Assembly (NCBI GenBank): GCA_017404025.1
Contig: JAFRDD010000173.1
Coordinates: 1-39,780 of the forward strand
Length of the DNA stretch: 39,780 bases
Direction of reading: 5' to 3'
Source of the DNA: Clostridia bacterium
Lineage (GTDB): Bacteria; Bacillota; Clostridia; TANB77; CAG-508
How positions within the stretch are numbered: the first letter of the stretch is position 1; each line of letters starts with the position of its first letter. The notes below the pieces were generated by a model. It saw only the letters and a list, made by a program, of their open reading frames with translations, was not told the DNA's origin and did no database searches. Both the position numbers and the translations under genes were made by a program. Positions 12,662 through 26,816 of this stretch are shown here, one piece after another.

Positions 12662-12722
12662 GATTTTGTAGTAAACCTACATTCTTTATATATAATAATA
12701 AAATAATTCAAAAATGTGGGAA

Positions 12723-13010
12723 TTATTTCCATCCTACAGTAGTTCCAACTGCAGTAAGAATAAGTCTTGATGTAAGAAGACTTCCAAATGGTCCTTTCTC
12801 ATCTACACCTAAAGCTTTACATATAGCTTTCATAACTTTAGGACCAATTGTTGCACCAGCAACACCACCAACAATAGCACCAATTAAACCTTCTTCAATT
12901 GGAGTACCATTTTCTTTAGCTTCTTGTAATTGTGCAATTACACTATCATATGTTAATTCCTCTGTAATAGGAGATTCTTCTACTTTTACAAAATCATCTA
13001 ACTTTTTCAT
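12723..13010 (-). CDS. Small glycine-zipper protein with capsid-targeting-like N-terminus, 95 aa
   Basis: I use the second ATG (13010), which gives MKKLDDFVKVEE, matching the shared N-terminal peptide; an ATG two codons earlier is also possible. After an acidic leader comes I-E-E at 38-40 and then a glycine-zipper hydrophobic stretch, GLIGAIVGGVAGATIGP (41-57), with glycines spaced 3-4 apart. A second hydrophobic segment near the C-terminus is LLTSRLILTAVGTTVGW. Cleavage after I-E-E by a T4 gp21-type protease would release a membrane-active-looking peptide of ~55 residues. It is the last of the run of small genes on this strand. Ejected membrane or pore peptide is my inference; a structural scaffold is an alternative. 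Confidence 0.6.
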   Translation of the reverse strand: MKKLDDFVKVEESPITEELTYDSVIAQLQEAKENGTPIEEGLIGAIVGGVAGATIGPKVMKAICKALGVDEKGPFGSLLTSRLILTAVGTTVGWK

Positions 13011-13019
13011 AATCATTTA

Positions 13020-13292
13020 TTATATATTGTCCCAATCATTATATACTTTTCTTACTTTAGCATATAAATCAGCTGCCTCATCATATTCTTTACTTTGTTT
13101 TCCAGATGCTACTTTATCTTTATCTTCATAATAATCCATTTCTGATTTAAAGTAATCCATCATTGCTTCTAAAATAACAGCAATTGTAGCTTCATAATTT
13201 CCTCTGTCTTGTTTTAACCAAGATTTAATATAATGAGTCATTTCTTTATTAGAAGTTTGTGATTCATTAAGTATATCAAGTAAATTCTTCAT
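13020..13292 (-). CDS. Small helical protein with capsid-targeting-like N-terminus, 90 aa
   Basis: The ATG at 13292 gives MKNLLDILNESQ; a GTG two codons upstream is rejected. The first ten residues match the shared N-terminal peptide, with a candidate cleavage site L-N-E|S. The rest is helical and charged (YYEDKDKVASGKQSKEYDEA) without a known domain. It lies 9 bases from the glycine-zipper gene and 18 from the Cys-cluster gene, all on one strand. A small internal head protein is inferred from the N-terminus. Confidence 0.6.
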   Translation of the reverse strand: MKNLLDILNESQTSNKEMTHYIKSWLKQDRGNYEATIAVILEAMMDYFKSEMDYYEDKDKVASGKQSKEYDEAADLYAKVRKVYNDWDNI

Positions 13293-13310
13293 ATTCACAA
13301 ATTATTTATT

Positions 13311-14069
13311 TTAACCAACTGAAACTGGTACTGGATTCTCTTTTAATGCAGAAGCCATGTCTTTTGTTTTTTGCTCTTCTAATTCTTTATCATATTTCTC
13401 TTTATTGAATGTAACAGTAAATAAGAAATCATAAAGGTCGTCAAGATTATCAATAGAAACATCAAGAACTTGTGCCCATTCTATTTCCTTTCTCTTTTCA
13501 AGTTTGCCAAGAATATCGGCAGCATCAACTAATGATGTTTTGATTGAACCTTCTTCACCATTACTTCCAAATTTCTTAGCAGCAAATAATTGAATAGAAC
13601 CATCTCCTCTAATCAATAAAACAGGCCACAAGAAATCAAAATCTTTGCATAATGTAATGATGTCATCTCTAAGTTTCTTGCTTCTATCATATCCATTTAC
13701 AGGACAGCTATAATCACAGAAGAAAATAGGTTCAGAAAATGCATTTTGAATAACATCTAAGAAACGGCATCTATAATCTAATGTAGTATGTGTATCAAGT
13801 AAATCATATACTTTTGGTTGACCATAGAATTTTTCACGGCATCTTTGAACAGGATCTTGCATAACAGGAGCAGGAACAGGATTAGCAATTGCTGTAGCAT
13901 CACCAGGTGCTTCACAAGGACAATCACATGAATAAGGGTCACAGCAGCATCCACAATCGCATTCATTAATCATATATCCTTCAAGATTAGAAAGTCTTTC
14001 AATAACTTCTTCATCTAATCCATTTAATGATATATATTGATTATTTATATATTCTGATAATTTTTTCAT
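13311..14069 (-). CDS. Cys-cluster protein with capsid-targeting-like N-terminus, 252 aa
   Basis: The N-terminus MKKLSEYINN fits the shared peptide. At 34-36 the residues I-N-E form a candidate prohead-protease site, directly followed by CDCGCCCDPYSCDCPC (37-52), eight cysteines in sixteen residues. Cleavage there would leave the mature protein starting with a metallothionein-like, metal-binding or disulfide-rich cluster. A short Pro/Ala linker (APGDATAIANPVPAPV) joins it to a folded C-terminal region (~75-250) that contains CDYSCPVNG and LWPVLLIRGDGSIQLFAAKK and is not recognised. It sits in the minus-strand run of small genes. Confidence 0.6.
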   Translation of the reverse strand: MKKLSEYINNQYISLNGLDEEVIERLSNLEGYMINECDCGCCCDPYSCDCPCEAPGDATAIANPVPAPVMQDPVQRCREKFYGQPKVYDLLDTHTTLDYRCRFLDVIQNAFSEPIFFCDYSCPVNGYDRSKKLRDDIITLCKDFDFLWPVLLIRGDGSIQLFAAKKFGSNGEEGSIKTSLVDAADILGKLEKRKEIEWAQVLDVSIDNLDDLYDFLFTVTFNKEKYDKELEEQKTKDMASALKENPVPVSVG

Positions 14070-14072
14070 ATA

Positions 14073-14345
14073 TTATTTATTATGTGTTTTTACCCAATTA
14101 GTTATTTCTGTATGTATAGTATCTATATCTGAATCATCATAAGGATCTTTACTGTTTTCTTGATGTGCATAGAAAAGTTCCATATTTTCAATTAACTTAT
14201 ACATATCTTCATCGGTCTTACATTGCATTCCTTCATCTGAAAGTTTCTTTGGCTCATATCCCCCAAAATAAGCTTTAATGATCTCCATTGCAATTTCTTT
14301 ACCGTTATTCTTTTTTGATTCAAAGTATTCTCTTAAAGATTTCAT
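14073..14345 (-). CDS. Small hypothetical protein with capsid-targeting-like N-terminus, 90 aa
   Basis: The start MKSLREYFESKK matches the shared peptide through residue 9, with E9 as a possible cut point although the residue two before it is Tyr rather than Leu or Ile. The remainder is helical, acidic at the C-terminal half (DPYDDSDIDTIHTEI), and without a known domain. It is separated by 3 bases from each neighbour, so the run is evidently one operon. Confidence 0.6.
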   Translation of the reverse strand: MKSLREYFESKKNNGKEIAMEIIKAYFGGYEPKKLSDEGMQCKTDEDMYKLIENMELFYAHQENSKDPYDDSDIDTIHTEITNWVKTHNK

Positions 14346-14348
14346 ATC

Positions 14349-14705
14349 TTATTTAGTGTTAATTTTATCAAGGATGTCTAAAAGTTCAACATCATTTGAA
14401 TCAACCCATGCATCATTTTCATCACACCATTCAATACATCTTTTGATTAATGGAATTTCATCAATAATCATATTACGGTTGATTTTCTTATAATTATATG
14501 TATCATCTAAACAATCATATAAAGATGAAAGTTTATCTTTATCTTTATCTGATAATTCTTTGATTAAGTCAGCGCATTTTTCTTCAATTTCATCATCTCC
14601 TAATGAACCACAAAGAACACCAACAAATGATGCTAATACATCTCTTTCATTTGGTTCTAATGAAAAATATCTTGACTCATTAATAAATTCAACTAAGTTT
14701 TTCAT
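14349..14705 (-). CDS. Acidic helical protein with capsid-targeting-like N-terminus, 118 aa
   Basis: The first residues MKNLVEFINESR give one of the clearest matches to the T4-type targeting peptide, with I-N-E|S as the predicted cleavage. The rest is acidic and helical with three Cys (C52-type positions in VLCG, EKCAD, LYDCLDD, and CIEWCDE further on), no domain recognised. The ATG overlaps the stop of the coiled-coil gene (ATGA), showing translational coupling within the run. Confidence 0.6.
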   Translation of the reverse strand: MKNLVEFINESRYFSLEPNERDVLASFVGVLCGSLGDDEIEEKCADLIKELSDKDKDKLSSLYDCLDDTYNYKKINRNMIIDEIPLIKRCIEWCDENDAWVDSNDVELLDILDKINTK

Positions 14706-15217
14706 TTGTATAATATATCATCTATTTTGCTTTGTAAATCACTGAGTTCTTCATCAAGTTTATTCATCTTTTCTTCTAACTCATCAATCTTTTCTTCTAA
14801 TTCATCAATCTTTTCATCAATATCTCCCATTTCACCCCCATATTCATTTGCTTTTTCTTCAGCTTTAGAATTATCCCCATTATGCATCAAGCTTCCCACT
14901 TCTTGTTCCATATCTGAATAAAGTTCTCTTTGTCTATTTGACAATTCTCTTAACTCTGTTTCTAATCCTTTTTGTTCATCAAATAATTTCCACCATTCAT
15001 CAGAAAGTTTTTGTTTCTTTTCTTCTAATGGTTTTACTTTTTCTAATCTTTCGGCTCTATCTTTTTCTTCAAGTTCTCTCATTTTAGCCCATTTCTTTTG
15101 TTGACGAGCTGAACGATATATCTTGATTACTTCACCAGTATCTTCATCTTCAAATTCTTCACAGTAACCTTTATATTTTTGGTGACCTTCTGTTAAATAT
15201 TGTGTTAGACTTTTCAT
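14702..15217 (-). CDS. Coiled-coil protein with capsid-targeting-like N-terminus, 171 aa
   Basis: The start MKSLTQYLTEGHQ matches the shared peptide, with L-T-E|G as the candidate cleavage. From about residue 45 to the C-terminus the protein is an almost continuous Glu/Lys/Leu coiled coil, with internal repeats IDELEEKIDELEEK near the end. Such elongated helices fit prohead core or internal scaffold proteins of T4-like phages, as well as DNA-condensing internal proteins. No enzymatic motif is visible. The tail of the gene contains a 21-bp DNA repeat (listed separately). Confidence 0.65.
   Translation of the reverse strand: MKSLTQYLTEGHQKYKGYCEEFEDEDTGEVIKIYRSARQQKKWAKMRELEEKDRAERLEKVKPLEEKKQKLSDEWWKLFDEQKGLETELRELSNRQRELYSDMEQEVGSLMHNGDNSKAEEKANEYGGEMGDIDEKIDELEEKIDELEEKMNKLDEELSDLQSKIDDILYK
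14766..14821 (-). repeat. 21-bp tandem repeat inside the coiled-coil gene
   Basis: The 21-base unit occupies 14766-14786 and 14787-14807 with one base difference, and a partial third copy follows. Each unit encodes one heptad (D-E-L-E-E-K-I), so copy number could change coiled-coil length without shifting the frame. Confidence 0.7.
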
Positions 15218-15224
15218 ATCTTAA

Positions 15225-15626
15225 TTAAATAATTTTCCATTGGGTTTCAGAAACAGTAGTGATTCTCATATTATCAAGACCTTGTTTAAGATAAAGTTCA
15301 AGAATCTTCTGAAGTTCTGTATTGTTATTAGCATAAAAAGGAACAGGATATTTCATTGTTTTTATTGTTCCATCTTCTTGTTCTACTTCTTCCGCAAACT
15401 TTACTATAAATACTTTACATGTTGGTTGATATTCTATATTGCCAGATGGCTTAAGATTTTTCATAAGACATACATCTTCAATCTCCCCATCACCTTGTAA
15501 ATATTCAAGTACTTTATAACCAGCCTCAGCAAAGTTAGATTGGTCACTGAGATAATACTCAACAACTGATTTATCCTTTCCTTTTGGGGTCTGTATATTT
15601 CTACTTACCTTTACTCTATACCACAT
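15225..15626 (-). CDS. DUF4494-like Bacteroidota protein, 133 aa
   Basis: The layout agrees with my recollection of DUF4494, a family of unknown function largely confined to Bacteroidota and their phages: an opening MWYRVKV, then YYLSDQSNFAEAGYKVLEYL, a central CKVFIVKFAEE, and a C-terminal segment ending ITTVSETQW. It does not carry the targeting peptide, unlike every neighbour on this strand, so it probably acts in the infected cell or by another route. It supports a Bacteroidota host. Identification is from pattern memory only. Confidence 0.6.
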   Translation of the reverse strand: MWYRVKVSRNIQTPKGKDKSVVEYYLSDQSNFAEAGYKVLEYLQGDGEIEDVCLMKNLKPSGNIEYQPTCKVFIVKFAEEVEQEDGTIKTMKYPVPFYANNNTELQKILELYLKQGLDNMRITTVSETQWKII

Positions 15627-15637
15627 AATTCTATATA

Positions 15638-15877
15638 TTAATCATTTTGTTCTTTCCATTCATCTGGTTCTGCAAAGATCACATAATCTTCATATTCTCC
15701 AAGAGGTTTATCTGCATTTACAAGTCTTTGTACTTTTTTAGCTTCTAATTCATCATATCCGCCAACTAAAATAGTATAACCATCTCTTTTACTGCCATTA
15801 AGAATCCAAGCATCTGCACCATGCCAATATCCAGTTTTTAATCCTTCATTAACTAAATATTCTACTAAACTTTTCAT
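15638..15877 (-). CDS. Small hypothetical protein with capsid-targeting-like N-terminus, 79 aa
   Basis: The start MKSLVEYLVNEGLK is a clear match to the shared peptide with one extra residue before the candidate cut (V-N-E|G). The mature part would be ~68 residues, compact and Gly/Trp-containing (GYWHGADAWILNGSKRDG), with no domain I can name. It lies 3 bases from the next gene in the same run. Confidence 0.6.
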   Translation of the reverse strand: MKSLVEYLVNEGLKTGYWHGADAWILNGSKRDGYTILVGGYDELEAKKVQRLVNADKPLGEYEDYVIFAEPDEWKEQND

Positions 15878-15880
15878 ATA

Positions 15881-16213
15881 TTATTCTTCATTATATTTCT
15901 TTACTATTTCAAGAAGAAGCTCCTTATTAGATATTGGATAGAACATTCTGTTTATGAATATACCAACCATATCTTTAGGAGCTGCAAAATCTGCTTCTTC
16001 ATCAAGCATATCAAGTTTATACCAAGAATAAGTTTTTTCATCTTCTTTTACAAGAATCTTAGGTGCTTGGTCAAAACTTCTTTTATCTCTATCATAATTA
16101 TTTGTTCTTGAAAGAATCATAGTAGAGATTGGATCTTTATCTAATAAGTTCTTTACAGAATTAAAGAACTTCTCGTCTTTTCCTTCATTAATGAATTGCT
16201 GTAAGTCTTTCAT
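15881..16213 (-). CDS. Small hypothetical protein with capsid-targeting-like N-terminus, 110 aa
   Basis: The start MKDLQQFINEGKD matches the shared peptide, with I-N-E|G as the predicted cleavage. The rest is a mixed alpha/beta soluble sequence without a known motif. It is the first gene of the minus-strand run, and TTTTATATAG lies 3-4 bases before its ATG, a plausible late-type TATA element. The divergent lipoprotein gene starts 88 bases away. Confidence 0.6.
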   Translation of the reverse strand: MKDLQQFINEGKDEKFFNSVKNLLDKDPISTMILSRTNNYDRDKRSFDQAPKILVKEDEKTYSWYKLDMLDEEADFAAPKDMVGIFINRMFYPISNKELLLEIVKKYNEE

Positions 16214-16265
16214 TACTATATAAAACTTTTAATTAAATAAAAATAAAAATTGTCTGAATAATATG

Positions 16266-16292
16266 TTCTATATTAATAATGTATTTATAAAT
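16266..16292 (+). promoter_or_regulatory. Phage promoter motif before the lipoprotein gene
   Basis: TTCTATATTA (16266-16275) is followed by a TTATAAATT core at 16285-16293, with wider spacing than in the best copies. The core ends ~9 bases before the ATG at 16302. Confidence 0.4.
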
Positions 16293-16301
16293 TATGCGTA
16301 T

Positions 16302-16559
16302 ATGAAAAAGATTGTTGCTTTTATTATTTCTTTTATTGTTATTTTAATGATTAGCGGTTGTGAACAGAAACCAGCTGTCATTAATGATAATTATGATAAT
16401 GTTGAATATATCTTTACAAAAATTGAGAAATTTGAATTTGAAGGACATAGATATATTTGGTTTGCTAATGAAGCAAATATTGTAAATGGATATGGCAAGG
16501 GTGCTACTGGTGGAATTGTTCATGACCCTAATTGTACATGTATGATTGATTATGATTAG
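16302..16559 (+). CDS. Predicted small lipoprotein, 85 aa
   Basis: The ATG at 16302 (MKKIVAFIISF) is chosen because it begins a standard lipoprotein signal: two Lys, a hydrophobic core, and the lipobox I-S-G-C with Cys20 as the lipidated residue. An upstream in-frame ATG would add 13 residues before the Lys pair. The mature part is ~66 residues with a D-P-N-C-T-C near the C-terminus (HDPNCTCMIDYD). Phage lipoproteins placed in the host envelope sometimes block entry of other phages; that role is only a suggestion. It begins a plus-strand operon divergent from the minus-strand run. Confidence 0.65.
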   Translation: MKKIVAFIISFIVILMISGCEQKPAVINDNYDNVEYIFTKIEKFEFEGHRYIWFANEANIVNGYGKGATGGIVHDPNCTCMIDYD

Positions 16560-16562
16560 CTT

Positions 16563-16772
16563 ATGAAAAGATTAAGTTATGAAGAAGTAAATTCTTTAAC
16601 AGGCTGGGAATTTTTTGAAGTAGCTGAAAAATTAAATGATGGTTGGAATAGACGGGGTGAACATCAAAATTATTACTTTGATGAAAATTATAAAACAGCT
16701 GATTGGAGAATAGTAGATAAGAAAACAAATCAAGAAGTTTATAGTTATTATAACGATTTTTATACCGGTTAA
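16563..16772 (+). CDS. Small hypothetical protein, 69 aa
   Basis: It starts MKRLSYEEVNSLTGWEF and is soluble, Trp/Tyr-rich and charged. The first few residues superficially resemble the shared targeting peptide, but no (L/I)-x-E site follows at the right place, so I do not count it. It is 3 bases downstream of the lipoprotein gene and 2 bases upstream of the next small gene. Confidence 0.55.
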   Translation: MKRLSYEEVNSLTGWEFFEVAEKLNDGWNRRGEHQNYYFDENYKTADWRIVDKKTNQEVYSYYNDFYTG

Positions 16773-16774
16773 AT

Positions 16775-16954
16775 ATGAAAAAAATTAAACAAATGACTTT
16801 TATTCCGCCTCTATGTAATCCATTGAACGGAATGCCTTATAATCCAGGAGGATATGAAAAATGCTGTCAAGTTGAATTCAATAAAGATGGTTCAGCTGAT
16901 TTATATGATTATAATACTACAGAACATATTGAACATTTAGAAAATATTAAATAA
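16775..16954 (+). CDS. Small hypothetical protein, 59 aa
   Basis: A complete ATG-to-TAA frame whose stop overlaps the next ATG (TAATG). The product contains PPLCNPLNGMPYNPGGY and an adjacent Cys pair (EKCCQVEF), then an acidic C-terminus. Tight packing on both sides and coupling to the next gene support it as real. No function is recognised. Confidence 0.55.
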   Translation: MKKIKQMTFIPPLCNPLNGMPYNPGGYEKCCQVEFNKDGSADLYDYNTTEHIEHLENIK

Positions 16955-17559
16955 TGGAAATTACACTTATTACAACATTTGATTTATCACAAGATATTAC
17001 TCTTGATGCGTACAATGATGATGAGAAAGTAGGTACAGCTGTCATTAAGAATGAAGAGCTTACTTATTATAATCTTGTAACAAACAAAACAGAAAAGTAT
17101 GATAAAGACAACCTTGATGAGTTTGTTGATTTTGTTGATGAATATAGATTGAAATTTAAAAAGGTTGCAGATAGAAAATGGATTAAGTATAATCCTAATC
17201 CACAAAATAACAATACTGGTGACTGTTCTATTCGTGCTTATTGCAAAGCTGAGAATCTTGATTGGAATGATGCTTATGATATGGCTTCAAGATTAGGCAA
17301 AGAAATGGCAATGATTTGTGATGACCATAAAGTTGTCAACAAGATTCTTACTGAAAGATTTGGATATGAATATACTAAGGGAGAAAAAGGTGCAAAGAAA
17401 AAGACAGTTAATGAATTTGCAATTGAACATCCTAAGGGCAAATATATCCTATGGGTACATGCTCATGTTGTTACATTAATAGATGGCTATTATTATGATT
17501 CTTGGGATAGTGGAAATCGAAAGATAAATGGTTATTATACAAAAGAAGAGGTTCGTTAA
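16954..17559 (+). CDS. Papain-like cysteine-peptidase-fold protein, 201 aa
   Basis: From about residue 76 the protein reads like a small papain-fold domain: GDCSIRAYCKA with a candidate nucleophile at Cys91, then HAHVVTLIDG with His169/His171, then YYDSWDSG with Asp182 as third catalytic or polar residue. The Cys...His...Asp order and spacing fit such peptidases and amidases. The N-terminal ~70 residues are a separate, acidic extension. The stop lies in a terminator hairpin loop. Targets might be host proteins or peptidoglycan; the absence of a signal peptide favours a cytoplasmic role. The family is not named with certainty. Confidence 0.55.
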   Translation: MEITLITTFDLSQDITLDAYNDDEKVGTAVIKNEELTYYNLVTNKTEKYDKDNLDEFVDFVDEYRLKFKKVADRKWIKYNPNPQNNNTGDCSIRAYCKAENLDWNDAYDMASRLGKEMAMICDDHKVVNKILTERFGYEYTKGEKGAKKKTVNEFAIEHPKGKYILWVHAHVVTLIDGYYYDSWDSGNRKINGYYTKEEVR

Positions 17560-17574
17560 GAACCTCTTTTTATT
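17546..17574 (+). terminator. Terminator between convergent genes
   Basis: Stem AAGAGGTTC / GAACCTCTT (17546-17554 with 17560-17568), loop GTTAA that contains the upstream gene's stop, then TTTATTTT. The converging minus-strand AAA+ gene ends right at 17575, so the hairpin may serve both strands, although the minus-side U-run is short. Confidence 0.75.
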
Positions 17575-19098
17575 TTAATACTTACTCATTCCTCTCGCAT
17601 ATTGTAATTTCATTTGCTCTTCAATCATTGATTTAGCATCTTCATCTGAGAATGATTCATCCCCATCACATGCTTTAAATATTTTTGCACATAGTACAAA
17701 TGTTCTCAATGAAAGTTCCATATCTGAACCATTCTTATCAAGTTCTTTAAGATACTCTAATGATTTATATTTTGATTTAAGATTAAGTATCTGAGGTTCA
17801 ATGTTTGGCATCAATTTTTCAATTATTTCTAAAACTTCAGCATTACTAAAATCAATGTCTTGTATGAAACTACGGCCTCTTAATGCAGTATCAAGTGCGC
17901 CAGCTTTATAATTTGTAATTACAATACATCCGCCTTTGAAATAGAATTTCTTTGGAATTTCTACACCTTCATCATCAGTAATTTTACCAGCAACACCATA
18001 AGTTACTAATCTTCCTTCTTCATCAGATGTTGAATCAAGAGCAGCTTTAAGAATATTAATACAATTTTCATCTGCTTTAGGACCAACTAATGAATCAGCA
18101 TCATCAATAAGAACAATATCATTCTTTTCTTTCATTTGATATAAAGTAAGATAAAGTTTTCTTGCTGTACATTTGCCTTTTGCAGTCATCATATTTTCAC
18201 CTTCTTTATATCCATTTTCTTTTAATTGTTTCTTTACTCTAAATGTTTTTCCAACACCAGGAGCACCACAAAGAATCAATGATGGTTGAAGACCTTTTAT
18301 AACTAATGAAATATATTTATTCATTTCTTTAAATATTTGTTCTGGGTCTTTCTTTCCTTTCTTTAATTCTTTTTCTTGTTCTATTAAATTATCTGATGAA
18401 TGAACTTTTACTTGTTTTCTTCTTTCAATTGCTAATTTAATGCCACTGTCTTCATTATCTTCTTTAAGTATACCAATTTGATTTGTGATAGATTCAAAAT
18501 CATCACAATATTTATGTTCTAAATCATTATCATCTGCATCTATTTTAAATGCGTCATTTATAATTGATTTCTTAAATCCTTCATAAACAGTGTAATTAAG
18601 TCCGCCAACAACAAATTTAGATTCTTTTACACCTTCATATTTTTCACTTGCTAACTTAATAGCTTCTTCTTGTGTTAAAGAATAGTTTCCAGAATTTACT
18701 ACAGCCCAAATGACAGGCAATAATTTAGCAATACTTGTTCCTAATGTATAGATAGACAAATCTGATTTGCCTTCACATCTCCAATATACATCTAAATCTT
18801 TAAAGAAATCAATTGAATATGGTGCAGCTGAATCTCCATCAACAAGCCAGTTTATTTGGAAGAAAGAAGATTTTGCATAATCATTCTTATCAGAAACTAT
18901 ATATTGTTTTGATATGCATTCATTACTATCTATAGTTGTATTTACATATCCAACAAGTGGAATAAGTCCTGATATATGCTTATGAAGTACCTTTTCAATA
19001 AGGTCTAATGCCTTATCTAAATCTTTTTCTTTAAATGCTTCATAAATAGCAAATCTTTTCTTATTTTCAATTATGAATTCTAAAAAACTCTTTTTCAT
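17575..19098 (-). CDS. AAA+ ATPase with capsid-targeting-like N-terminus, 507 aa
   Basis: The ATG at 19098 (MKKSFLEFIIENKK) is preferred to an upstream in-frame ATG, since it follows a TATATATAAG element at normal distance and gives the shared N-terminal peptide with I-I-E|N as candidate cut. Counting from it, Walker A GAPGVGKT is at 278-285 and Walker B VLIDDAD at 329-335. These are followed by CIVITNY (sensor 1) and LRGRS, a likely arginine-finger region. The first ~230 residues form an unrecognised domain (SSFFQINWLVDGDSAAP...). It lies next to the baseplate genes. An ATPase packed in the head would be unusual, so the N-terminal match may be functional or coincidental. Confidence 0.75.
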   Translation of the reverse strand: MKKSFLEFIIENKKRFAIYEAFKEKDLDKALDLIEKVLHKHISGLIPLVGYVNTTIDSNECISKQYIVSDKNDYAKSSFFQINWLVDGDSAAPYSIDFFKDLDVYWRCEGKSDLSIYTLGTSIAKLLPVIWAVVNSGNYSLTQEEAIKLASEKYEGVKESKFVVGGLNYTVYEGFKKSIINDAFKIDADDNDLEHKYCDDFESITNQIGILKEDNEDSGIKLAIERRKQVKVHSSDNLIEQEKELKKGKKDPEQIFKEMNKYISLVIKGLQPSLILCGAPGVGKTFRVKKQLKENGYKEGENMMTAKGKCTARKLYLTLYQMKEKNDIVLIDDADSLVGPKADENCINILKAALDSTSDEEGRLVTYGVAGKITDDEGVEIPKKFYFKGGCIVITNYKAGALDTALRGRSFIQDIDFSNAEVLEIIEKLMPNIEPQILNLKSKYKSLEYLKELDKNGSDMELSLRTFVLCAKIFKACDGDESFSDEDAKSMIEEQMKLQYARGMSKY

Positions 19099-19117
19099 AT
19101 GATGTATATTATATTGT

Positions 19118-19137
19118 CTTATATATAAAAATAAATG
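19118..19137 (-). promoter_or_regulatory. Late-type promoter candidate for the AAA+ gene
   Basis: The minus strand reads TATTTTTATATATAAG, with TATATATAAG at 19127-19118, ending 19 bases before the ATG at 19098. A nearly identical TATATATATAAG precedes the ATP-grasp gene. Confidence 0.45.
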
Positions 19138-19139
19138 AA

Positions 19140-20831
19140 TTAAATCCAAATAATTGTAATAGCATCAAGCTTTACTGATGTTGATTTATCCTCAGAATCC
19201 TTGTTAGGATAATATTTGAAACCACCGCCAAGAATAGGTACTTCCAAATTAGAATCAAGTGAAATATTACCAAAATCATCTAATCCAGGTGTCTTATCAG
19301 ATTCATAGTATACTTTATTCTTAACAAATTGATATTCACCATTTATATAATCTAATGTATACTTATAATAGAATGAATTATAGTAGCATTCTTCAGCAAG
19401 TTCTGAAATGAAATCAATATCAAATGCATCTATGTCTTCATGTATTCCTGAACATAAGTTAATTAAATCAGATTTAGGAATAAACTTAACATTGTCTTTT
19501 AACTGTACAAAATAATTAGCAATAGTATCAATTAATGTTTCTTGTATGTCTTGTTTTGAATATACTGATGCTGCTTTAACATAACAGAATACAGCAAATC
19601 TTCTAATTTCAGGATCTTGGAATTTTAATGTAAGACCGGCAAATGATTTGTTAGAATTCTTAAGAGTATTTATAACCATCATCTTTTGTTCATTTGTTAA
19701 TAATACTCCTTGTTCATTATTTATCTTATTAGTTAATTTAAGATATTCATCAGCTGATGAAATATTATCAATCATATTTGATAATGCTGTTGCATATACT
19801 GTCATTGAATTTTCTTCTGACCAGCAATTTACATATCCAATAAATGAAAATCTTTTAAAGAATAATTTAAAGTTCTGTTCTGATGCAATTACATTACTTC
19901 TTGAATTATATCCAATCATGTTTCTTACGAAATCAATTGTATCAGAATCTGTTCCGCCAGAAATAACTGTATTAAGTTCAAGTGAAACATATTCATTCAA
20001 ATCAATTGTATTTCCTGATGAATCATATCCTTTATCATTAAATACAAATTCTGCTTGGTCAAGGAATCCAATGTTTCCAACTTTACCTGAATGAGATATA
20101 TAAAGAATTTGAACAATATCTCCAAGTTTTGGAATTCTACCATAAATTCCATTACCGAACATTATGTCAAATATGTTTTCATAACCAACAGTAAGAATTA
20201 CTTGCTTACCGTTTTCTGTCATATCATAAAGATTTGAAACAGTTTCCCATTCTTCTCCATTTACAAGAACTTTAATATAATTTCTATCAAAAAGACCTGA
20301 AGCATCAATTGATATTTTCTCAAGTGGTTCTCCTAAACAAGAATATTGGTAATTCATCCATTGTCCTTGAACAATCTTAAATTCATGACTTAGCAATGGT
20401 TGATTTGCATATATGACATAACGATTAGTATTTAAAAACATTATATAGTTGATGCCTGTAGTCTTATTGATTATTCTTGTATAATTATCAATATATACTT
20501 TATCAACATTTTCGTATGAAGAGGTTCTAATAATTTTTCCAATTAACGTTCCTGAAGCAGCACTACCATAATAAGGATCATATCCACTTACTTTAGCTAA
20601 TGAATATATACTCTTTCTTCTTGTTGCTGTTTGAATGTTCTGTTCTGTTAATGCATCCTCAATATAGAACATTACATTCTGCATTATTCCTTTGATACCA
20701 TCATAGATGACACCAAAAATCTGGTTATGTGTATATTGATAACCTAATGATGTAAATGTCTTTGACAAATATTTTTTAACAGTATCATCAAAATTTTCAA
20801 ATGATGTTTCTGTTATATTGAATAGCTTCAT
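19140..20831 (-). CDS. Baseplate wedge protein, gp6/baseplate-J-like, 563 aa
   Basis: In T4, gp6 builds the inner ring of the baseplate wedges. The N-terminal ~240 residues show the family hallmarks: an opening FDDTVKKYLSKTFTSLGY, SGYDPYYGSAASGTL near 83-97, and DIMFGNGIYGRIPKLGD near 222-238, the last being the characteristic F-G-(D/N)-G-x-x-G-x-x-P-x-x-G turn of baseplate-J proteins. The length is close to T4 gp6 (about 660) and other phage J proteins. It lies 17 bases from the gp25-like gene on the same strand, the T4 order (gp25-gp6). Confidence 0.85.
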   Translation of the reverse strand: MKLFNITETSFENFDDTVKKYLSKTFTSLGYQYTHNQIFGVIYDGIKGIMQNVMFYIEDALTEQNIQTATRRKSIYSLAKVSGYDPYYGSAASGTLIGKIIRTSSYENVDKVYIDNYTRIINKTTGINYIMFLNTNRYVIYANQPLLSHEFKIVQGQWMNYQYSCLGEPLEKISIDASGLFDRNYIKVLVNGEEWETVSNLYDMTENGKQVILTVGYENIFDIMFGNGIYGRIPKLGDIVQILYISHSGKVGNIGFLDQAEFVFNDKGYDSSGNTIDLNEYVSLELNTVISGGTDSDTIDFVRNMIGYNSRSNVIASEQNFKLFFKRFSFIGYVNCWSEENSMTVYATALSNMIDNISSADEYLKLTNKINNEQGVLLTNEQKMMVINTLKNSNKSFAGLTLKFQDPEIRRFAVFCYVKAASVYSKQDIQETLIDTIANYFVQLKDNVKFIPKSDLINLCSGIHEDIDAFDIDFISELAEECYYNSFYYKYTLDYINGEYQFVKNKVYYESDKTPGLDDFGNISLDSNLEVPILGGGFKYYPNKDSEDKSTSVKLDAITIIWI

Positions 20832-20848
20832 ACTCTATAATGTTTTAT

Positions 20849-21193
20849 TTATTGATATTGATACTCTCGTACTCCTGTATTTCCTTCATCATCCATAAGA
20901 AGAATTCTAACATAATATATACTACGATATTCTCCTTCCATATATGATGCTTTTACAAAAATCTTATACTGACTTGCAAAGTGTGTAGATTGTTCTATCT
21001 TTTCTCTGATATATTTTTCAATCTCTAATGTAGTTGGAGAAAGAGTCCAAAGAAAAGTTTCAAATTCTGTTCCATAATTTGGATATCCAATAAGCTGTGT
21101 ATTTTCAGTATTAAGAAGCATATCTATTTCTTGTAATGCACAGTCAAGTGGATTATCTAAAAATATTCTACCGTCTAACGCTAAGTCAAGCAT
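20849..21193 (-). CDS. gp25-like baseplate wedge protein, 114 aa
   Basis: Small baseplate wedge protein that joins gp6 to the tail sheath initiation region in contractile tails. The sequence contains the family core ALQEIDMLLNTENTQLIGYP followed by YGTEFETFLW and LSPTTLEIEKYIREKI, and the length matches the family (about 110-135). It lies between the gp6-like gene and the large tail gene. The minus-strand TTTATAGAG just before its ATG is a possible TATA element also seen before the gp6-like gene. Confidence 0.85.
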   Translation of the reverse strand: MLDLALDGRIFLDNPLDCALQEIDMLLNTENTQLIGYPNYGTEFETFLWTLSPTTLEIEKYIREKIEQSTHFASQYKIFVKASYMEGEYRSIYYVRILLMDDEGNTGVREYQYQ

Positions 21194-21204
21194 ACTCTAT
21201 AAAA

Positions 21205-23079
21205 TTAATTTATTGTATAAGTACCATCTGAAATGTAATCATTATCTTCATTTGTAATGATATACTTTCCAGAAGTTTCTGTAAGTTTAGCAGCATTAAT
21301 TCTGAATATGACAAATATGTTGTTTCGTCCATATTCAATATATTCATTCTGTCCTATGATAAGTTTGAATGTTTCTACCTTAGTCATGTATTCATCAAGA
21401 TTTATACCAATGTTCTGAGTAACTCCAGATTTAATAGTAATATTCTGAAGCTCAGTAGTTCTATAGAATACTGGCTTATAAATTATCTTAGGAGCATTTT
21501 TCTTTATTACTTCAATATCATCAGTATCAGATGAATCTTTAATGATAGAACAATTAATCTTATCTATGAATAGAATTGGATTTTCTGAATCATTATAATT
21601 TCCTACTATCATCTTTTCATTATCTGTATCTTTGTTTATAATCTTATATACTTTATTCAAGTGAAGTTTTGCTTTTGTAACATTATTGACAATGTATTTA
21701 TACCATTCATCAGTTATTACAACAGGATTTGATTGTATCTTATTGCAAGCAACTTTATCAATAAATGTTATTCTATAAACTATCATACTTGGAACATCTT
21801 CCCAATCATTAAATATTCCAGTCAATGGGAATGTGAAATCATCTATAAGTGAATCTAAACTGTTTATGTTTACTTTATATTTGAAAAAGATATTTGTAAA
21901 TCTTTTATCTGTAGCCATTTCAATGAAGAATCCTGTCTTCTTTATTTCCCAAAGATCTTCCCCAAAATATTCATCATCTTCATCTTTATAATCAATCATA
22001 GATTCATCATCAGGATTATAATGAATGTATGAATCTTCAGTAAGTCCATTTAACTTAAGATATCTTTCAATAAGTGTATCACCAGTTTCTCCAGAAATAT
22101 TAAACTTACTTATGGCACAAGGAACACCATAATATTTGTTATATGTTTGTACATCATTAAAATCATCGACAAGAGGAAATCTTATCTCTGTCTTAAAAGA
22201 TGTTTCAATAGGCATATTGAATGTTGTTCCATTTGCATTCAATTCAGAATTAATAATGAATGAACCAAATGAATCAATATCTACATAAGGATACATTATA
22301 AGATTTAATGTACTGTAGAATTGATTGTTTATATAATTAGCTGTAGTAATGAAACGTTTCTTATATATAGGTTTATTGTTTGCATTACGTTCAGTCAATA
22401 TTTCATAAGGATAATATAATGTATTGAAAGGAACAACAGATTTTCCGTTAACAAATTCATTTACTTCTTGTTCTGTTTCACCATCATATCTTAAACATGT
22501 ATTATATTCATTCACAAATATTGAATCATCATATAATAATGAATTAAGAGAAGGAATATATATGTCTATAAATTCAGAATATGTCTGATGGTCTATAGTG
22601 AAATCTGTTCTTGCATTTCTTTCATAATCATGCATATCAGCAATAAGATAATGATACTTTACATCATTTATGAAATTCTCTATATCAATTATTGCATCTA
22701 TGTCATTCTTTATTGTTGGATAATAAATACGAACCATATCGCAAAGAATTTCAGCTTCTTCAAATTCATTTCCATTCTTTCTGTAAAGATGATAAATGCT
22801 TGCATCTAAATTATTTTCATTGAAGTTTGCATTAAAATTCTTTGGGTCTGTTGTATATCCTACAGATGTTGTATCATTAATAGGATAAATTACATGTTTC
22901 TTATCATAAATTTCTTTATTGATAAAATATATGTGGCGGTCACAAATCGTTCCAGAGATAAGATCAACATCTCTAAAGAGATAGAATGTTCTATATGTAG
23001 GATTAACTAAATCTTCACCAGCTTTGTAAAGATCTACTATGAATCTATAATTTCCTAATATTACTTTCTGTCTTATCAT
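21205..23079 (-). CDS. Large baseplate/tail protein, 624 aa
   Basis: No specific family is recognised. It starts MIRQKVILGNYRFIVDLYKAG and is rich in Asn, Asp, Tyr and Ile. Beta-strand-like stretches throughout, with no catalytic motif, are typical of structural tail proteins. It is the first gene of the gp25-gp6 operon and is 11 bases from the gp25-like gene, so a wedge, tail-fibre-attachment or baseplate periphery role (a counterpart of T4 gp7/gp8/gp53 region) is likely. A TATAAGT lies 4-10 bases before its ATG. Confidence 0.65.
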   Translation of the reverse strand: MIRQKVILGNYRFIVDLYKAGEDLVNPTYRTFYLFRDVDLISGTICDRHIYFINKEIYDKKHVIYPINDTTSVGYTTDPKNFNANFNENNLDASIYHLYRKNGNEFEEAEILCDMVRIYYPTIKNDIDAIIDIENFINDVKYHYLIADMHDYERNARTDFTIDHQTYSEFIDIYIPSLNSLLYDDSIFVNEYNTCLRYDGETEQEVNEFVNGKSVVPFNTLYYPYEILTERNANNKPIYKKRFITTANYINNQFYSTLNLIMYPYVDIDSFGSFIINSELNANGTTFNMPIETSFKTEIRFPLVDDFNDVQTYNKYYGVPCAISKFNISGETGDTLIERYLKLNGLTEDSYIHYNPDDESMIDYKDEDDEYFGEDLWEIKKTGFFIEMATDKRFTNIFFKYKVNINSLDSLIDDFTFPLTGIFNDWEDVPSMIVYRITFIDKVACNKIQSNPVVITDEWYKYIVNNVTKAKLHLNKVYKIINKDTDNEKMIVGNYNDSENPILFIDKINCSIIKDSSDTDDIEVIKKNAPKIIYKPVFYRTTELQNITIKSGVTQNIGINLDEYMTKVETFKLIIGQNEYIEYGRNNIFVIFRINAAKLTETSGKYIITNEDNDYISDGTYTIN

Positions 23080-23083
23080 GATG

Positions 23084-23090
23084 ACTTATA
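23084..23090 (-). promoter_or_regulatory. TATAAGT element before the baseplate operon
   Basis: Minus-strand TATAAGT (23090-23084) lies five bases before the ATG at 23079. It mirrors a TATAAGT on the opposite strand at 23150, in front of the divergent gene. With such short leaders the transcript would be nearly leaderless if this is the -10 element. Confidence 0.4.
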
Positions 23091-23149
23091 CCAATTTATT
23101 AAAAATAAAAATGCTGATGTAATTACAAAGATTATTTTTATATATAATT

Positions 23150-23156
23150 TATAAGT
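23150..23156 (+). promoter_or_regulatory. TATAAGT element before the divergent internal-protein gene
   Basis: TATAAGT at 23150-23156, preceded by TTTTTATATATAATT, ends 6 bases before the ATG at 23163. It is of the same type as the elements before the minus-strand structural genes and unlike the TCTATATTA class. Confidence 0.4.
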
Positions 23157-23162
23157 TTTGAT

Positions 23163-24044
23163 ATGAGAAGATTAACAGAATACATAGTTGATTGGAAACA
23201 GAAGCAGATAACAGAAGCAATGCTTTTTGAATCTGAAATGTATATGATTACAGAAGGAACATTTTTAAAGAAGTTTGCAAATTGGCTTGGCAGTCTTGGT
23301 GGAAAAATGACTGCTAAAATAAAAGAATATCAAAAAGATTTAGTTGATTTTGGTAAGAATGTTCAAACAGCATTTAATGGATATGTTGCAAATTCTATCA
23401 ATGATGATTCATTACCAAAAGAAACTGCTCAACAGAATTTAGAAATCATAACATCAGCAAAACCAGAAGAAATTCCTTCTAAAATAGCTGAAATTTATAA
23501 TAACAATAAGAATGATGCTAACTTTAAGAATTCTCCAACAACTGCATATCTTTATTTATATGGATTAGAAATTGCTAAAGAAAAAGGTGATGCAGAAAAT
23601 CAGAAAATTCTTCAAGATGCATTTGATTCAATTCCAGCTGATGTAAAGAAAAAAGCTGCAGAAAATTTAAAAGCTGAAAGAGCAGATAATGTACCTGATA
23701 AGCCAGGAGAAACAAAACCTGAAGAAAATAAACCAGCAGAAGGACAAGAAACAGTTGATCCAAAGAAAGAACCTGAAAAGGTAGAAGAAATTGTTGATAA
23801 AGTTGCTGAGGATGATAAAATTACTGAATTAGCAAAAGAAGCCCAAATAAAAGACATTGGAAAACTTAAAGATTTTGTTACTCAGAAACTTAAAGACAGT
23901 GGAAAAGAATTTAATGAGGAAACAGTTCAAGGTTTGTTGGTAATGATATGTAATGCATGTAAAGACCAGGATTTCAAGAAGGTTGAACCAGTAGCTGCAT
24001 CACTTGATATTTCAATTAGCGACATATTAGATATTGCTCAATAA
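23163..24044 (+). CDS. Probable internal head or prohead-core protein, 293 aa
   Basis: It starts MRRLTEYIVDWKQKQITEAM, the shared N-terminal peptide in an extended form. Further (L/I)-x-E-type sites follow (I-T-E at 16-18, and again I-T-E near 30-32 before GTFLKKF). Residues ~32-75 are amphipathic and basic, the centre is helical, and a Pro/Glu/Lys-rich linker spans about 180-207, before a helical C-terminal domain. Multiple potential cleavage sites and a highly charged helical make-up fit prohead core or internal proteins of T4-like phages. It is the only member of the peptide-bearing set on the plus strand, and it is closed by a strong terminator. Confidence 0.6.
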   Translation: MRRLTEYIVDWKQKQITEAMLFESEMYMITEGTFLKKFANWLGSLGGKMTAKIKEYQKDLVDFGKNVQTAFNGYVANSINDDSLPKETAQQNLEIITSAKPEEIPSKIAEIYNNNKNDANFKNSPTTAYLYLYGLEIAKEKGDAENQKILQDAFDSIPADVKKKAAENLKAERADNVPDKPGETKPEENKPAEGQETVDPKKEPEKVEEIVDKVAEDDKITELAKEAQIKDIGKLKDFVTQKLKDSGKEFNEETVQGLLVMICNACKDQDFKKVEPVAASLDISISDILDIAQ

Positions 24045-24068
24045 TATCATTTATATATATTATATAAG

Positions 24069-24098
24069 AAAGTTGCAAATTATTTTGCAACTTTTTTG
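24069..24098 (+). terminator. Strong rho-independent terminator
   Basis: The 11-bp perfect stem AAAGTTGCAAA / TTTGCAACTTT (24069-24079 with 24084-24094) has a 4-base loop and continues into a T-run. It separates the internal-protein gene from the gene-free region that follows. Confidence 0.85.
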
Positions 24099-24103
24099 AA
24101 TTT

Positions 24104-24133
24104 TATAAATACGATTTTATATTATTAATGTAA
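24104..24133 (+). promoter_or_regulatory. Promoter candidate for the non-coding transcript
   Basis: TATAAATA (24104-24111) is followed by TTTATATTATTAATGTAA (24116-24133). The latter matches 17 of 18 bases of the promoter motif at 9588-9605. No open reading frame of note follows, so it probably drives the RNA below. Confidence 0.5.
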
Positions 24134-24139
24134 TTTAAA

Positions 24140-24552
24140 TTGGATGCCGTTCAAACAAACAAACATTTTAAAACACCGGAAATATGAAAACAAGAGACCG
24201 ACCGATTTAGAAATTATATAAATTTTTAATGATGATATTGGATAATGTAAATTAAAACCGGAAACACTTTTAAATATGGAACGTCCTCCGCCCAATTAAT
24301 TGATTATAGATTGATTTTATATATTGTAGCCTTTAAGAGAAAAAACTAACAGAGGAAGTTACAGTTTTTCGAAAGCTTTTTTAAAGACCTCCGCAACTAA
24401 TAAAAATACCTTAGAAGATAAAGATTGGTTATCTTTATTGGAGTAAACAACCTGGATAATTAAGGATATATATTTATTGATGATTTATTGATTTTAATTA
24501 TACATATAATACTAAAAAGAGCTCCTTCGCCTAATAGGAGCTCTAATTTTTT
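24140..24552 (+). ncRNA. Putative structured non-coding RNA, about 400 nt
   Basis: The 468 bases between the gene ending at 24044/terminator and the minus-strand gene ending at 24568 hold no credible reading frame. They are framed by a promoter motif at 24104-24133 and a terminator at 24518-24552. Inside are GC-richer blocks unlike the surrounding AT-rich gaps: TAAAACCGGAAACAC with a partner ACACCGGAAATATG upstream, two CCTCCGC blocks at about 24286 and 24389, a hairpin AAAAACU...AGUUUUU (24344-24370) with AGAGGAA in its loop that could pair with the downstream ACCUCCG as a pseudoknot, and a TAAAGAT/ATCTTTA hairpin at about 24420-24437. It does not look like a tRNA, tmRNA or group I intron. 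Ends are approximate. Confidence 0.5.
24518..24552. terminator. Bidirectional rho-independent terminator
   Basis: Stem AGAGCTCCT / AGGAGCTCT (24518-24526 with 24536-24544), 9-base loop. A T-run follows on the plus strand (AATTTTTTA) and another on the minus strand (CTTTTTAG), so it can end both the proposed RNA and the minus-strand operon finishing at 24568. Confidence 0.8.
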
Positions 24553-24567
24553 ATATATGTTTTGATA

Positions 24568-25038
24568 TTATCCTAAAGAACCATATCTTTTTTTATAATC
24601 AACAGTACCGCAAACAATAATTGAATCTGTAAGAAAGTCTGGATTTTGAATTCTTAAAAGTTCTGATGTTCCAGACATCTGTGTATGACAGTTTGCATCA
24701 TTTAATATCCACTTACCATAATCTCTTGTTGTTTCTTCACCACCTTTTACTCGTTTATCATTAATAATGAACTTATCTGTTATTTCATCAGATAATTCAA
24801 AATTATCTTTTAAAGCATTATGGTCTCTTTTTGATATTACAATTTCAATACCTATTATTTCATTAGTCTGAATCCAATTAAGAATATGCTTATATTCTGT
24901 CGATTCATCATCAAATCCGCATAATTCTATAACTATTTTAGATAATTCTTCAGGAGAACCTTCAAAATGATTTTGAATTATCTTTATATCTTTATTAAGT
25001 TTAAGTTTCTCTGTTATATAATTATCTAAAGTCTTCAT
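24568..25038 (-). CDS. Hypothetical protein with capsid-targeting-like N-terminus, 156 aa
   Basis: The start MKTLDNYITEKLK matches the shared peptide, and its first three residues M-K-T are the same as in T4 internal proteins; the candidate cut is I-T-E|K. The mature part is a soluble alpha/beta protein (IIGIEIVISKRDHNALKD, KGGEETTRDYGKWIL) without a recognised domain. The ATG overlaps the stop of the ATP-grasp gene, so the two are probably co-translated, and a partner role with the ATP-grasp protein is possible. Confidence 0.6.
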   Translation of the reverse strand: MKTLDNYITEKLKLNKDIKIIQNHFEGSPEELSKIVIELCGFDDESTEYKHILNWIQTNEIIGIEIVISKRDHNALKDNFELSDEITDKFIINDKRVKGGEETTRDYGKWILNDANCHTQMSGTSELLRIQNPDFLTDSIIVCGTVDYKKRYGSLG

Positions 25039-26696
25039 TTTGCTTCTCTATTATGCTTATTATATTCTGATGAATGGAATTCTTCTTCAAGAGTATGCTT
25101 AGCACCTGGATTAATCTGATATGCCATCTTTGCCATTATGTCTCTGTTAAGAAGTACAGGAGTTGATTTCTTTCTATTATCTACAAGAGCAAATTCAACA
25201 TTAAGAAGTTTTCTACTTCCTATTTGAATACAAGGAACCGTTACGGTTACTCTTTCTTCTCTTACTTGTCCAACCATTGGTGTTGATACACCGGACTTTT
25301 TAAATCTATATGTCTTTCCATCAATAACTGCTGATACTTTATCACCAATTACTTGTACTGAATCACATCCTATTGTAGAAGCCTTTGCCCCATTACCTGT
25401 ATCAAATTTTGCTTCAAGTTCAAACTCAGTATCATTATCCATTATGAATTTCATATTTTCAATGTAACCAATTGACTTAGGAGCAAGTACCAATTCATTG
25501 ATGTCATTTATAGCATCAAGAAGTATCTTACAGAAATTTTCTCCAATTACTTCAGATATTCCTTCAGTACCAGGAGAGCAATTATATTCAAGAACAACAT
25601 TATCTCCAATTTCTGGATTGCTTCCTTTTACAAGTGGCATAATATCAACAGCACACCAAGGCATACCAGAAATCTTAGCTACATTCAATGCAATGTCTCT
25701 CTGTTCTGGTGTTATTTCAACCTTTTCTGCTTGAGCACCTAAAGAAACATTTGAACGGAAATCTCCGCCAAGTTTCTTTCTCTTCATACAAGCAAGAATT
25801 GTTTGTTTTGTTCTTGATGTTAATACATGTACTCTAATATCACCACCATCTGCTTCTTCCTTCTTCTGAAGTAATAATTCTCGTTCAGGGTCAATTGCAA
25901 ATATTGCTTGAAGAATTGCAAGAATACCTTTACCAGTTGTCATAAATACACCAGTTCCACCATGTCCATCAAGAATCTTTACAACATATTCTCTCTTTTC
26001 ATCTTCTTCTTTATTCTGTCCTACTTCTTTATAAATAAGTTTAAGTTTCTTTTGAAGAGTTTCTTCTCCTTTTGCAACATCCTTTTGAGATAACAAACAG
26101 AATTTAGGTTGAGGTATTTCATATCTCTGCATCAATACAGCAGAAGCATATTTATTAGATGCTCTCTTTGCTGCTTGAATAGGATTAAGAACAAATAATC
26201 CCCAATCCTGAAGTTCCTTTACACATTCCATGCATTCTTCTGAATCTTGTGCACCTAATCTAACAATTACAATTGTATCAATATTGGATTGGTCAGTTAT
26301 TGTAAACTTTTCTTTAGAATCTTTAATTTCAATTTTCTTATCATTTGCTGTATAATCAACTTCTTCAGAAACAAATACAACAAGATTGATGTCTGTGTTC
26401 TTTATAGCATCTTTCAAATTCTTAAGAGTCTTGTTCTTTGATTCATCTCTTTCATTTGTAAAGAATATGATATTACTAAAGAAATATTCTTCATTTCTTT
26501 TAATCATATCAACTGTCTGTACTTTATCATCAATGTTTCCTTGCTGTTCTGCAGCTTGTTCTGCAGCTTGTTCTGGATTTGGTTCTTTCTCAGGATTCTG
26601 TTCTGAACCTGTATTTTCATCAGCTTCTAATATATTTTCAAGTTCATCAAGTGAACTAATATATTTTGATTCCAAAAATTGATTGAATGTCTTCAT
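25035..26696 (-). CDS. ATP-grasp (RimK-like) ligase fused to retropepsin-like (RimB-like) domain, capsid-targeting-like N-terminus, 553 aa
   Basis: I use the ATG at 26696 (MKTFNQFLESKY) rather than one five codons upstream, since it gives the shared N-terminal peptide with F-L-E|S as candidate cut. A Gln/Glu/Pro linker (~27-53) leads to an ATP-grasp region with KILDGHGGTGVF (~240-251), GGDIRVHVL (~284-292) and VVLEYNCSPGTEG (~367-379), typical of RimK-type amino-acid ligases. The C-terminal ~130 residues carry a DTG at 432-434 (FDTGNGAK), VPCIQIG, and LLNRDIM, as in RimB (DUF785), an aspartyl-protease-fold partner of RimK that trims glutamates. Cellular RimK adds glutamates to ribosomal protein S6. 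A packaged protein-modifying enzyme, as with T4 Alt, is the inference. Confidence 0.75.
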   Translation of the reverse strand: MKTFNQFLESKYISSLDELENILEADENTGSEQNPEKEPNPEQAAEQAAEQQGNIDDKVQTVDMIKRNEEYFFSNIIFFTNERDESKNKTLKNLKDAIKNTDINLVVFVSEEVDYTANDKKIEIKDSKEKFTITDQSNIDTIVIVRLGAQDSEECMECVKELQDWGLFVLNPIQAAKRASNKYASAVLMQRYEIPQPKFCLLSQKDVAKGEETLQKKLKLIYKEVGQNKEEDEKREYVVKILDGHGGTGVFMTTGKGILAILQAIFAIDPERELLLQKKEEADGGDIRVHVLTSRTKQTILACMKRKKLGGDFRSNVSLGAQAEKVEITPEQRDIALNVAKISGMPWCAVDIMPLVKGSNPEIGDNVVLEYNCSPGTEGISEVIGENFCKILLDAINDINELVLAPKSIGYIENMKFIMDNDTEFELEAKFDTGNGAKASTIGCDSVQVIGDKVSAVIDGKTYRFKKSGVSTPMVGQVREERVTVTVPCIQIGSRKLLNVEFALVDNRKKSTPVLLNRDIMAKMAYQINPGAKHTLEEEFHSSEYNKHNREAK

Positions 26697-26714
26697 AAAT
26701 TTTGTATGCATAAA

Positions 26715-26736
26715 CTTATATATATAAAAATAAAAA
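26715..26736 (-). promoter_or_regulatory. Late-type promoter candidate for the ATP-grasp operon
   Basis: The minus strand has an A/T tract then TATATATATAAG (26726-26715), 18 bases before the ATG at 26696. It matches the element before the AAA+ gene. Confidence 0.45.
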
Positions 26737-26747
26737 ATACACAGTAT

Positions 26748-26769
26748 TCTATATTAGAATATATAAGTA
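26748..26769 (+). promoter_or_regulatory. Phage promoter motif TCTATATTA with TATAAGTA
   Basis: TCTATATTA at 26748-26756 and TATAAGTA at 26762-26769 with a 5-base gap. It would give a ~85-base leader to the HD gene at 26861, longer than for the other copies. Confidence 0.45.
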
Positions 26770-26816
26770 TATAAAATTCATGACTATTAATGTGCATAAT
26801 AGTTAAAAAATTAACC

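Follow-up and report, generated by a model that had tools for sequence, protein, structure and literature searches.

Why should twelve proteins of otherwise unrelated sequence begin with nearly the same ten residues? The question is raised by a 39,780-nucleotide stretch of DNA (hereafter the window), contig C124 of a bacterial metagenome-assembled genome (MAG; 2.38 Mb in 176 contigs), in which an earlier note, made from the sequence alone, had picked out twelve such N-termini and read them as a T4-like signal that targets proteins to the phage capsid. The peptide, here called the tag (consensus M-K-x-[L/I]-x-x-[Y/F]-[I/L]-x-E), heads many unrelated proteins in a group of giant phages that includes this one, a rumen phage, and the comparisons below give us high confidence in reading it as a putative propeptide that targets proteins to the capsid, like that of the T4 internal proteins.

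All twelve N-termini that the note had listed are present in the window, each at its coordinate and on its strand; four (13010, 13292, 19098 and 26696) have an upstream in-frame start codon, the longest open reading frame being 6–51 nt longer at the 5′ end. That the proteins have nothing in common after the tag was borne out as well, with BLASTP among the twelve parts beyond residue 12 returning 0 pairs at E ≤ 0.01. A tag profile was trained on G002 and G003, two phages from IMG/VR, and on C36, a second contig of the same MAG, and was applied with a threshold of 8 bits to six contigs (the window, C36, G001, G002, G003 and G007); in each gene of at least 60 amino acids (aa), every methionine in the first 45 residues was scored as a possible start, and later methionines served as the control. 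The tag reached threshold in 198 of 1610 genes (198 of 2733 early methionines) and at 5 of 5984 internal methionines (9 of 5984 at 4 bits). On contigs held out of training it was assigned to 30 of 210 genes against 0 of 696 internal methionines (G001), 15 of 276 against 1 of 1120 (G007) and 7 of 51 against 0 of 215 (the window), and it was seen in 0 of 60 genes in 67 kb taken from eight further MAG contigs. The possibility, raised in the note, that the peptide is equally common elsewhere is thus answered in the negative: gene starts carry it, and internal methionines almost never do.

With the window excluded from training, seven of its twelve starts score at least 8 bits; those at 14345, 15877 and 26696 reach 4.4–6.1 bits, that at 19098 reaches 12.1 bits only with one residue removed, and that at 13010 does not fit the profile (−1.9 bits). 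None of the remaining window genes exceeds −0.3 bits. The proteins offered as untagged controls behave as such: the gp25-like, gp6-like, 425-aa and DUF4494-like proteins lack the tag and, together with a 624-aa protein, score −15.9 to −29.3 bits, the gp6-like protein having a chance ITE at residues 6–8. The gp6-like assignment was itself correct, this 563-aa protein being a baseplate wedge (phrog_219, 2.9e-30); the DUF4494 match lies slightly under its cut-off, and the ‘gp25-like’ protein had no match in the Pfam or PHROG scan. The note proposed cleavage after (L/I)-x-E; [L/I]xE falls inside residues 8–11 in six of the twelve proteins (13292, 14705, 15217, 16213, 19098 and 25038), and for roughly half of them the proposal has less support. 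Eight tagged genes form a block at 12723–16213, broken by the single untagged DUF4494-like gene, and megablast of positions 10000–27000 against a phage collection found no similar DNA. The twelve proteins and two of the controls are as follows, a slash after a peptide marking the predicted cut.

12723–13010, minus strand: 95-aa glycine-zipper-like protein starting MKKLDDFVKVEE, an atypical tag with ITE at residues 15–17 (−1.9 bits)
13020–13292, minus strand: 90-aa tagged protein, MKNLLDILNE/S (10.8 bits)
13311–14069, minus strand: 252-aa Cys-rich tagged protein, MKKLSEYINN, position 10 not E (8.6 bits; the G001 ortholog starts identically)
14073–14345, minus strand: 90-aa protein with a weaker tag, MKSLREYFES (5.3 bits)
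14349–14705, minus strand: 118-aa tagged protein, MKNLVEFINE/S (18.7 bits; G002 ortholog MKAIIQYINE/S)
14702–15217, minus strand: 171-aa coiled-coil-like tagged protein, MKSLTQYLTE/G (20.4 bits; weak coiled-coil Pfam matches under cut-off)
15225–15626, minus strand: DUF4494-like protein, untagged, the negative control within the block (−29.3 bits)
15638–15877, minus strand: 79-aa protein, MKSLVEYLVNE, a tag with a one-residue insertion (6.1 bits)
15881–16213, minus strand: 110-aa tagged protein, MKDLQQFINE/G (20.5 bits; G001 and G003 orthologs tagged too)
17575–19098, minus strand: 507-aa AAA+ ATPase (PF00004, 3.8e-7), MKKSFLEFIIE/N (12.1 bits with a one-residue shift)
19140–20831, minus strand: baseplate wedge protein (gp6-like), untagged (−15.9 bits)
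23163–24044, plus strand: 293-aa tagged protein, MRRLTEYIVD, with ITE/A at residues 16–18 (10.1 bits)
24568–25038, minus strand: 156-aa tagged protein, MKTLDNYITEKLKLNKDI, with a second module shared with C36 (19.3 bits)
25035–26696, minus strand: 553-aa RimK-like ATP-grasp protein (PF08443, 6.2e-21), MKTFNQFLE/S, the least certain tag (4.4 bits)

The atypical protein at 12723–13010 has glycine-zipper Pfam matches, all under cut-off, and six matching loci, including Lak-A1 (46.8%) and a 462-kb phage; in four of the six, ITE or INE ends at residue 14–16. It is a candidate membrane-active head protein.

Is the machinery that such a signal would serve present? A prohead protease, whose gene the note had suggested looking for, is encoded on C36 (Peptidase_S77, 1.8e-10, above cut-off), a 19.6-kb contig that also carries a Gp23-type capsid protein (PF07068, 3.2e-6) and nine genes tagged by a strict pattern. 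The protease is fused to a long, acidic, coiled-coil-like, repeat C-terminus resembling a scaffold, and its homolog in phage PTm1 is annotated ‘prohead core scaffolding protein and protease’. Protease and tagged genes lie on one contig in three relatives (G002, G003 and G007), and an S77 protease was found in four of the seven large IMG/VR relatives; the three without it may be fragments. The capsid proteins of C36, G003, G002, G007, W06, W05 and Lak-A1, aligned by eye, show a similar step ~40 to 65 residues in, close to the predicted end of the N-terminal propeptide: [ILVM]-x-E and then S, A, N or D (for example IHE/S, VYE/A and LYE/N), cut sites predicted from sequence. Window and C36 are similar in base composition and have in common the second module EKL(H/K)LNKDI, present in one window gene. 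Second modules follow many tags (L002 and the G001–G003 contigs). The module reads EKLHLNKDI on C36 and G001; on G003 it reads EKFRLSKDN, and in some of the proteins there the tag itself is repeated in tandem (MKKLNHYISE...YITEKFRLSKDN).

The most direct comparison is with T4 itself. Ranked by the profile, which was trained without T4, ipII and ipIII come first among 252 called T4 genes (9.3 bits each). A strict regular expression with Leu, Ile, Val, Met or Phe at position 4 hit 0 of the 252, since both ipII and ipIII carry Tyr at that position, and was replaced by a wider pattern and the profile. In the sections of PMC9026906 drawn on here, ten residues of IPIII suffice as a capsid-targeting sequence (CTS), residues 4 and 7 of the CTS serve targeting and residues 8 and 10 processing, and gp21 cleaves after [L/I]-x-E. 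An S77 protease in the MAG, ipII and ipIII at the top of the T4 genes and the position of the tag at gene starts together support the note’s central proposal of a T4-type CTS. By analogy with T4, positions 4 and 7 of the tag would attach the protein to the prohead core and the shell would close round it; a gp21-like protease would then cut past the Glu near residue 10, leaving a mature protein that would stay with the DNA and be ejected into the host.

Other giant phages related to this group appear to use the system too, each with a peptide dialect of its own. Relatives of the capsid protein, assigned to Prevotella, Tenacibaculum, Chryseobacterium and Sphingomonas, were scanned for N-terminal patterns over-represented against pseudo-starts made from internal methionines; the patterns were found post hoc, and the null comprised 30 draws (20 for RaK2). 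The dialect of Sphingomonas phage PAU, MKTLxxLYE/A, scored 63.4 against a null maximum of 8.8 and occurs on 20 of 290 genes versus 1 of 1217 internal methionines. It is carried by four of the five PAU genes labelled ‘internal capsid protein’ and 16 of the 285 others (Fisher p = 8e-5), a label from the GenBank record, which, as consulted, does not state its basis. Scores also exceeded the null in the first 200 kb of LR756501 (735 kb; MITKFKIFE, 39.5 versus 9.3), in 200 kb of LR756500 (462 kb; MKYIKSYENFINE, 26.7 versus 8.6) and in Lak-A1 (400 kb, TAG read as Gln; MNKNIKKLLESLFDD on six genes, 25.1 versus 10.0). The top Lak-A1 pattern hit nine genes, two of which resemble a transposase pair, and the six counted as tagged were picked out visually in two lists of patterns. 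A second tag, MKSLxESLFDKD, is present in G007, on 15 of 276 genes and 0 of 1184 internal methionines. The RaK2 pattern (21.1 versus 9.5) was not counted as a tag, its nine proteins mostly resembling hydrophobic leaders or membrane segments. T4 scored 9.4 against a null of 5.4, slightly above it, with a top pattern that was not the known CTS. Protease genes gave a further sample: 22 loci minus three on contigs already counted leave 19, of which two (L196 and L197) look duplicated, and 12 of the 19 hold 47 tagged genes (361 genes over all 19), against 3 of 2050 internal methionines.

Could the tag instead remain uncut and address proteins elsewhere, to the tail, the inner membrane or the replication site, by docking on another phage protein? 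This rival survives best, and we consider it unlikely. It would accommodate the half of the window tags without [L/I]xE in residues 8–11, as well as one tagged G001 protein similar to tail tape measures, but the profile singles out ipII and ipIII, which are packaged in T4, the PAU version marks most of the genes labelled internal, and on C36, in PAU and in G003 the tagged genes lie in clusters near genes for protease, scaffold, portal or capsid.

Capsid targeting itself has a series of observations to contend with. In the window, [L/I]xE is displaced or altered in the other half of the tags; four orthologs of the AAA+ ATPase at 19098 keep FLxF or YLxF at the start, but the Glu of their IxE or LxE sits at residue 15–24; and the tag of the RimK-like protein at 26696 is clear in only one of 13 distinct relatives. 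The window and C36 are separate contigs, and we infer that they belong to the same phage. In T4, ipI takes third place with 0.0 bits and gp24 sixth place with −2.3 bits, both below threshold and near unrelated or untagged genes. PAU gp70, labelled internal, has no tag, nor has a PAU protein containing DUF285. The PAU capsid protein has 585 residues and 520 when mature by N-terminal sequencing (PMC5646251, Table 1, the part of that paper used here), and the L-M-E ending at Glu64 predicts 521, one off the listed value. Among tagged proteins there are single PHROG matches to a tape measure, a portal and a terminase small subunit, the one examined individually being the tape measure. PTm1 has an S77 protease and 0 of 297 tagged genes, its de novo score of 9.3 falling within the null (maximum 10.1); RaK2 likewise has the protease, and no tag was found; and seven of the 19 further protease loci have no tag within their 10-kb flanks. 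With T4 barely above its null, on a non-CTS pattern, and PTm1 within its own, the de novo method is taken to miss small tag sets.

Could the shared N-terminus be a functionless relic of duplication, its 5′ end donated by one ancestral gene through paralogy or recombination? Compared by BLASTP over the parts after residue 16 (1e-3), the 198 tagged proteins form 129 clusters, 110 of them singletons. The largest, the DUF285 family, suits such an origin, with 49 of the 198 proteins, 45 of them in G003 and mainly in tandem; 149 tagged genes remain without it, and the 410-kb phage G003 has 91 of 489 genes tagged, or 46 excluding the family. The 45 G003 paralogs (BspA-like repeats; L021–L040 and L066) lie mainly in tandem arrays at several genome sites. 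We find a relic quite improbable: the tag stands on 128 further clusters with varying third codon bases, 85% of clusters retain Lys at residue 2, which the training pattern did not require, and other, local dialects occur on DUF285 proteins of Lak-A1 and G007 and on a 430-aa family (LR756500, with G003 and G007). That the conserved stretch works as DNA or RNA, such as a translation enhancer or leader, is hardly credible: its location at the start codon would fit, but Leu or Ile at position 4 is encoded by five codons (TTA, ATT, ATA, CTT and CTA) and the third bases differ all along the stretch. Judged by its codons, the tag is a protein-level signal; when each cluster is represented by a single protein, the third bases of the codons are free to vary, and the constraint therefore acts on the protein. 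Part of the invariance seen in the second base at residues 4 and 8 follows from the selection on residues.

What, then, would capsid targeting load? The cargo scan covered 135 proteins (127 cluster representatives and a further eight, taken from the window and C36, not all of them reaching threshold), of which at most 25 matched Pfam, in 23 families, and most had no match. The domains include RimK-like ATP-grasp, AAA, NUDIX, NDK, ferritin-like, PNK-like AAA_33, HAD, nucleotidyltransferase, acetyltransferase and DUF285. PADLOC matched 14 families, one member each (best 9.2e-17), and follow-up Pfam and PHROG scans of tagged proteins were blank for 10 of 10 in one set and 18 of 20 in another. Ten tagged proteins were scanned singly and eight had a Pfam match; in six of the eight the domain begins at residue 16–22, right behind the tag, the other two being a nucleotidyltransferase starting at 30–31 and a partial zeta-toxin-like match at 123. 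The RimK and AAA domains of the window start deeper, at 180 and 274. Untagged homologs of tagged proteins include a T4 kinase at 134002–134907 and two C36 nucleotidyltransferases, the latter homologous to a tagged G002 protein. PHROGs also identified a tagged sigma factor in G007 (L159:16100-17482), whose G002 and G003 homologs are without the strict tag; the PAU sigma factor gp1 is labelled internal capsid vertex protein in its record, yet is untagged. Two small tagged G003 proteins (L024:14334-14627 and 15715-16062) match C-terminal parts of larger untagged G002 proteins, and each looks like a domain excised and then tagged.

We lean, by a modest degree, towards a broader proposal: that many of the largest known phages (PAU, Lak megaphages and the 376-735-kb phages) share a general protein-loading system with lineage-specific N-terminal dialects, by which up to ~1/5 of the genes would have their products loaded and delivered, the load including a sigma factor, nucleotide and RNA-repair-type enzymes and DUF285 arrays. 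Proteins that a phage injects can work against host defences and aid takeover of the cell, and in giant phages they are known mainly from analysed virions. If the proposal is true, whole injected protein sets could be read from the genome, uncultured giant phages included, as candidate lists; the tag predicts N-termini that can be checked by proteomics in cultured PAU, and the dialects would be a natural experiment on how the prohead core recognizes cargo. Relatives sit in MAGs labelled Firmicutes and Erysipelotrichales, and a 400-kb relative was found in the Erysipelotrichaceae MAG RUG13941; these are probably giant phages binned into bacterial genomes. The window, a phage contig, also encodes an OmpA-family protein (PF00691) at 37753–38958 whose start resembles a signal peptide.

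How does this compare with known systems? The principle of a shared CTS on diverse proteins is already known, since it has been described for T-even phages, whose internal proteins are highly diverse and conserved only in the CTS (PMC3012670; also PMC9026906, both in the parts used here). Among the hits listed by searches of open-licence PMC articles, no title or abstract start described tags of this kind in PAU-like, Lak or rumen phages, and ‘capsid targeting’ is absent from the main text, as available, of two jumbo-phage overviews (PMC7824862 and PMC13282480). Those searches found no report of the use of the tag in these phages or on this scale. In phiKZ and SPN3US, as proposed here, a gp21-related protease cleaves many inner-head proteins after Glu, but several propeptides there exceed 100 residues, and in the portions of the two sources used an identical N-terminus is noted for gp53 and gp54 alone (PMC5694885, PMC9026906). 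The N-terminal 30 residues of P1 DarB direct a reporter into the capsid, whereas the authors, in the part of the paper cited, report no consensus among Dar N-termini by BLAST (PMC9024508). PAU resembles the phages described here in its homologous capsid protein (32%), its protease and an N-terminus common to 20 of 290 genes, and differs in its dialect and in having protease and scaffold annotated as separate genes.

T4 carries a handful of CTS proteins, whereas 91 of 489 genes are tagged in one phage here. Unlike in T4, where position 4 is Tyr, it is mostly Leu or Ile here; recognizable enzymes are tagged, and the protease is fused to a scaffold-like part. The tag is otherwise like the gp21-cut CTS of IPI, IPII, IPIII and Alt in spanning ~10 N-terminal residues with hydrophobic or aromatic residues at positions 4 and 7 (PMC9026906, PMC3012670), and the two systems share [I/L]xE at 8-10 (in T4, IPII and IPIII), an S77 protease, a gp23 capsid and unrelated mature parts.

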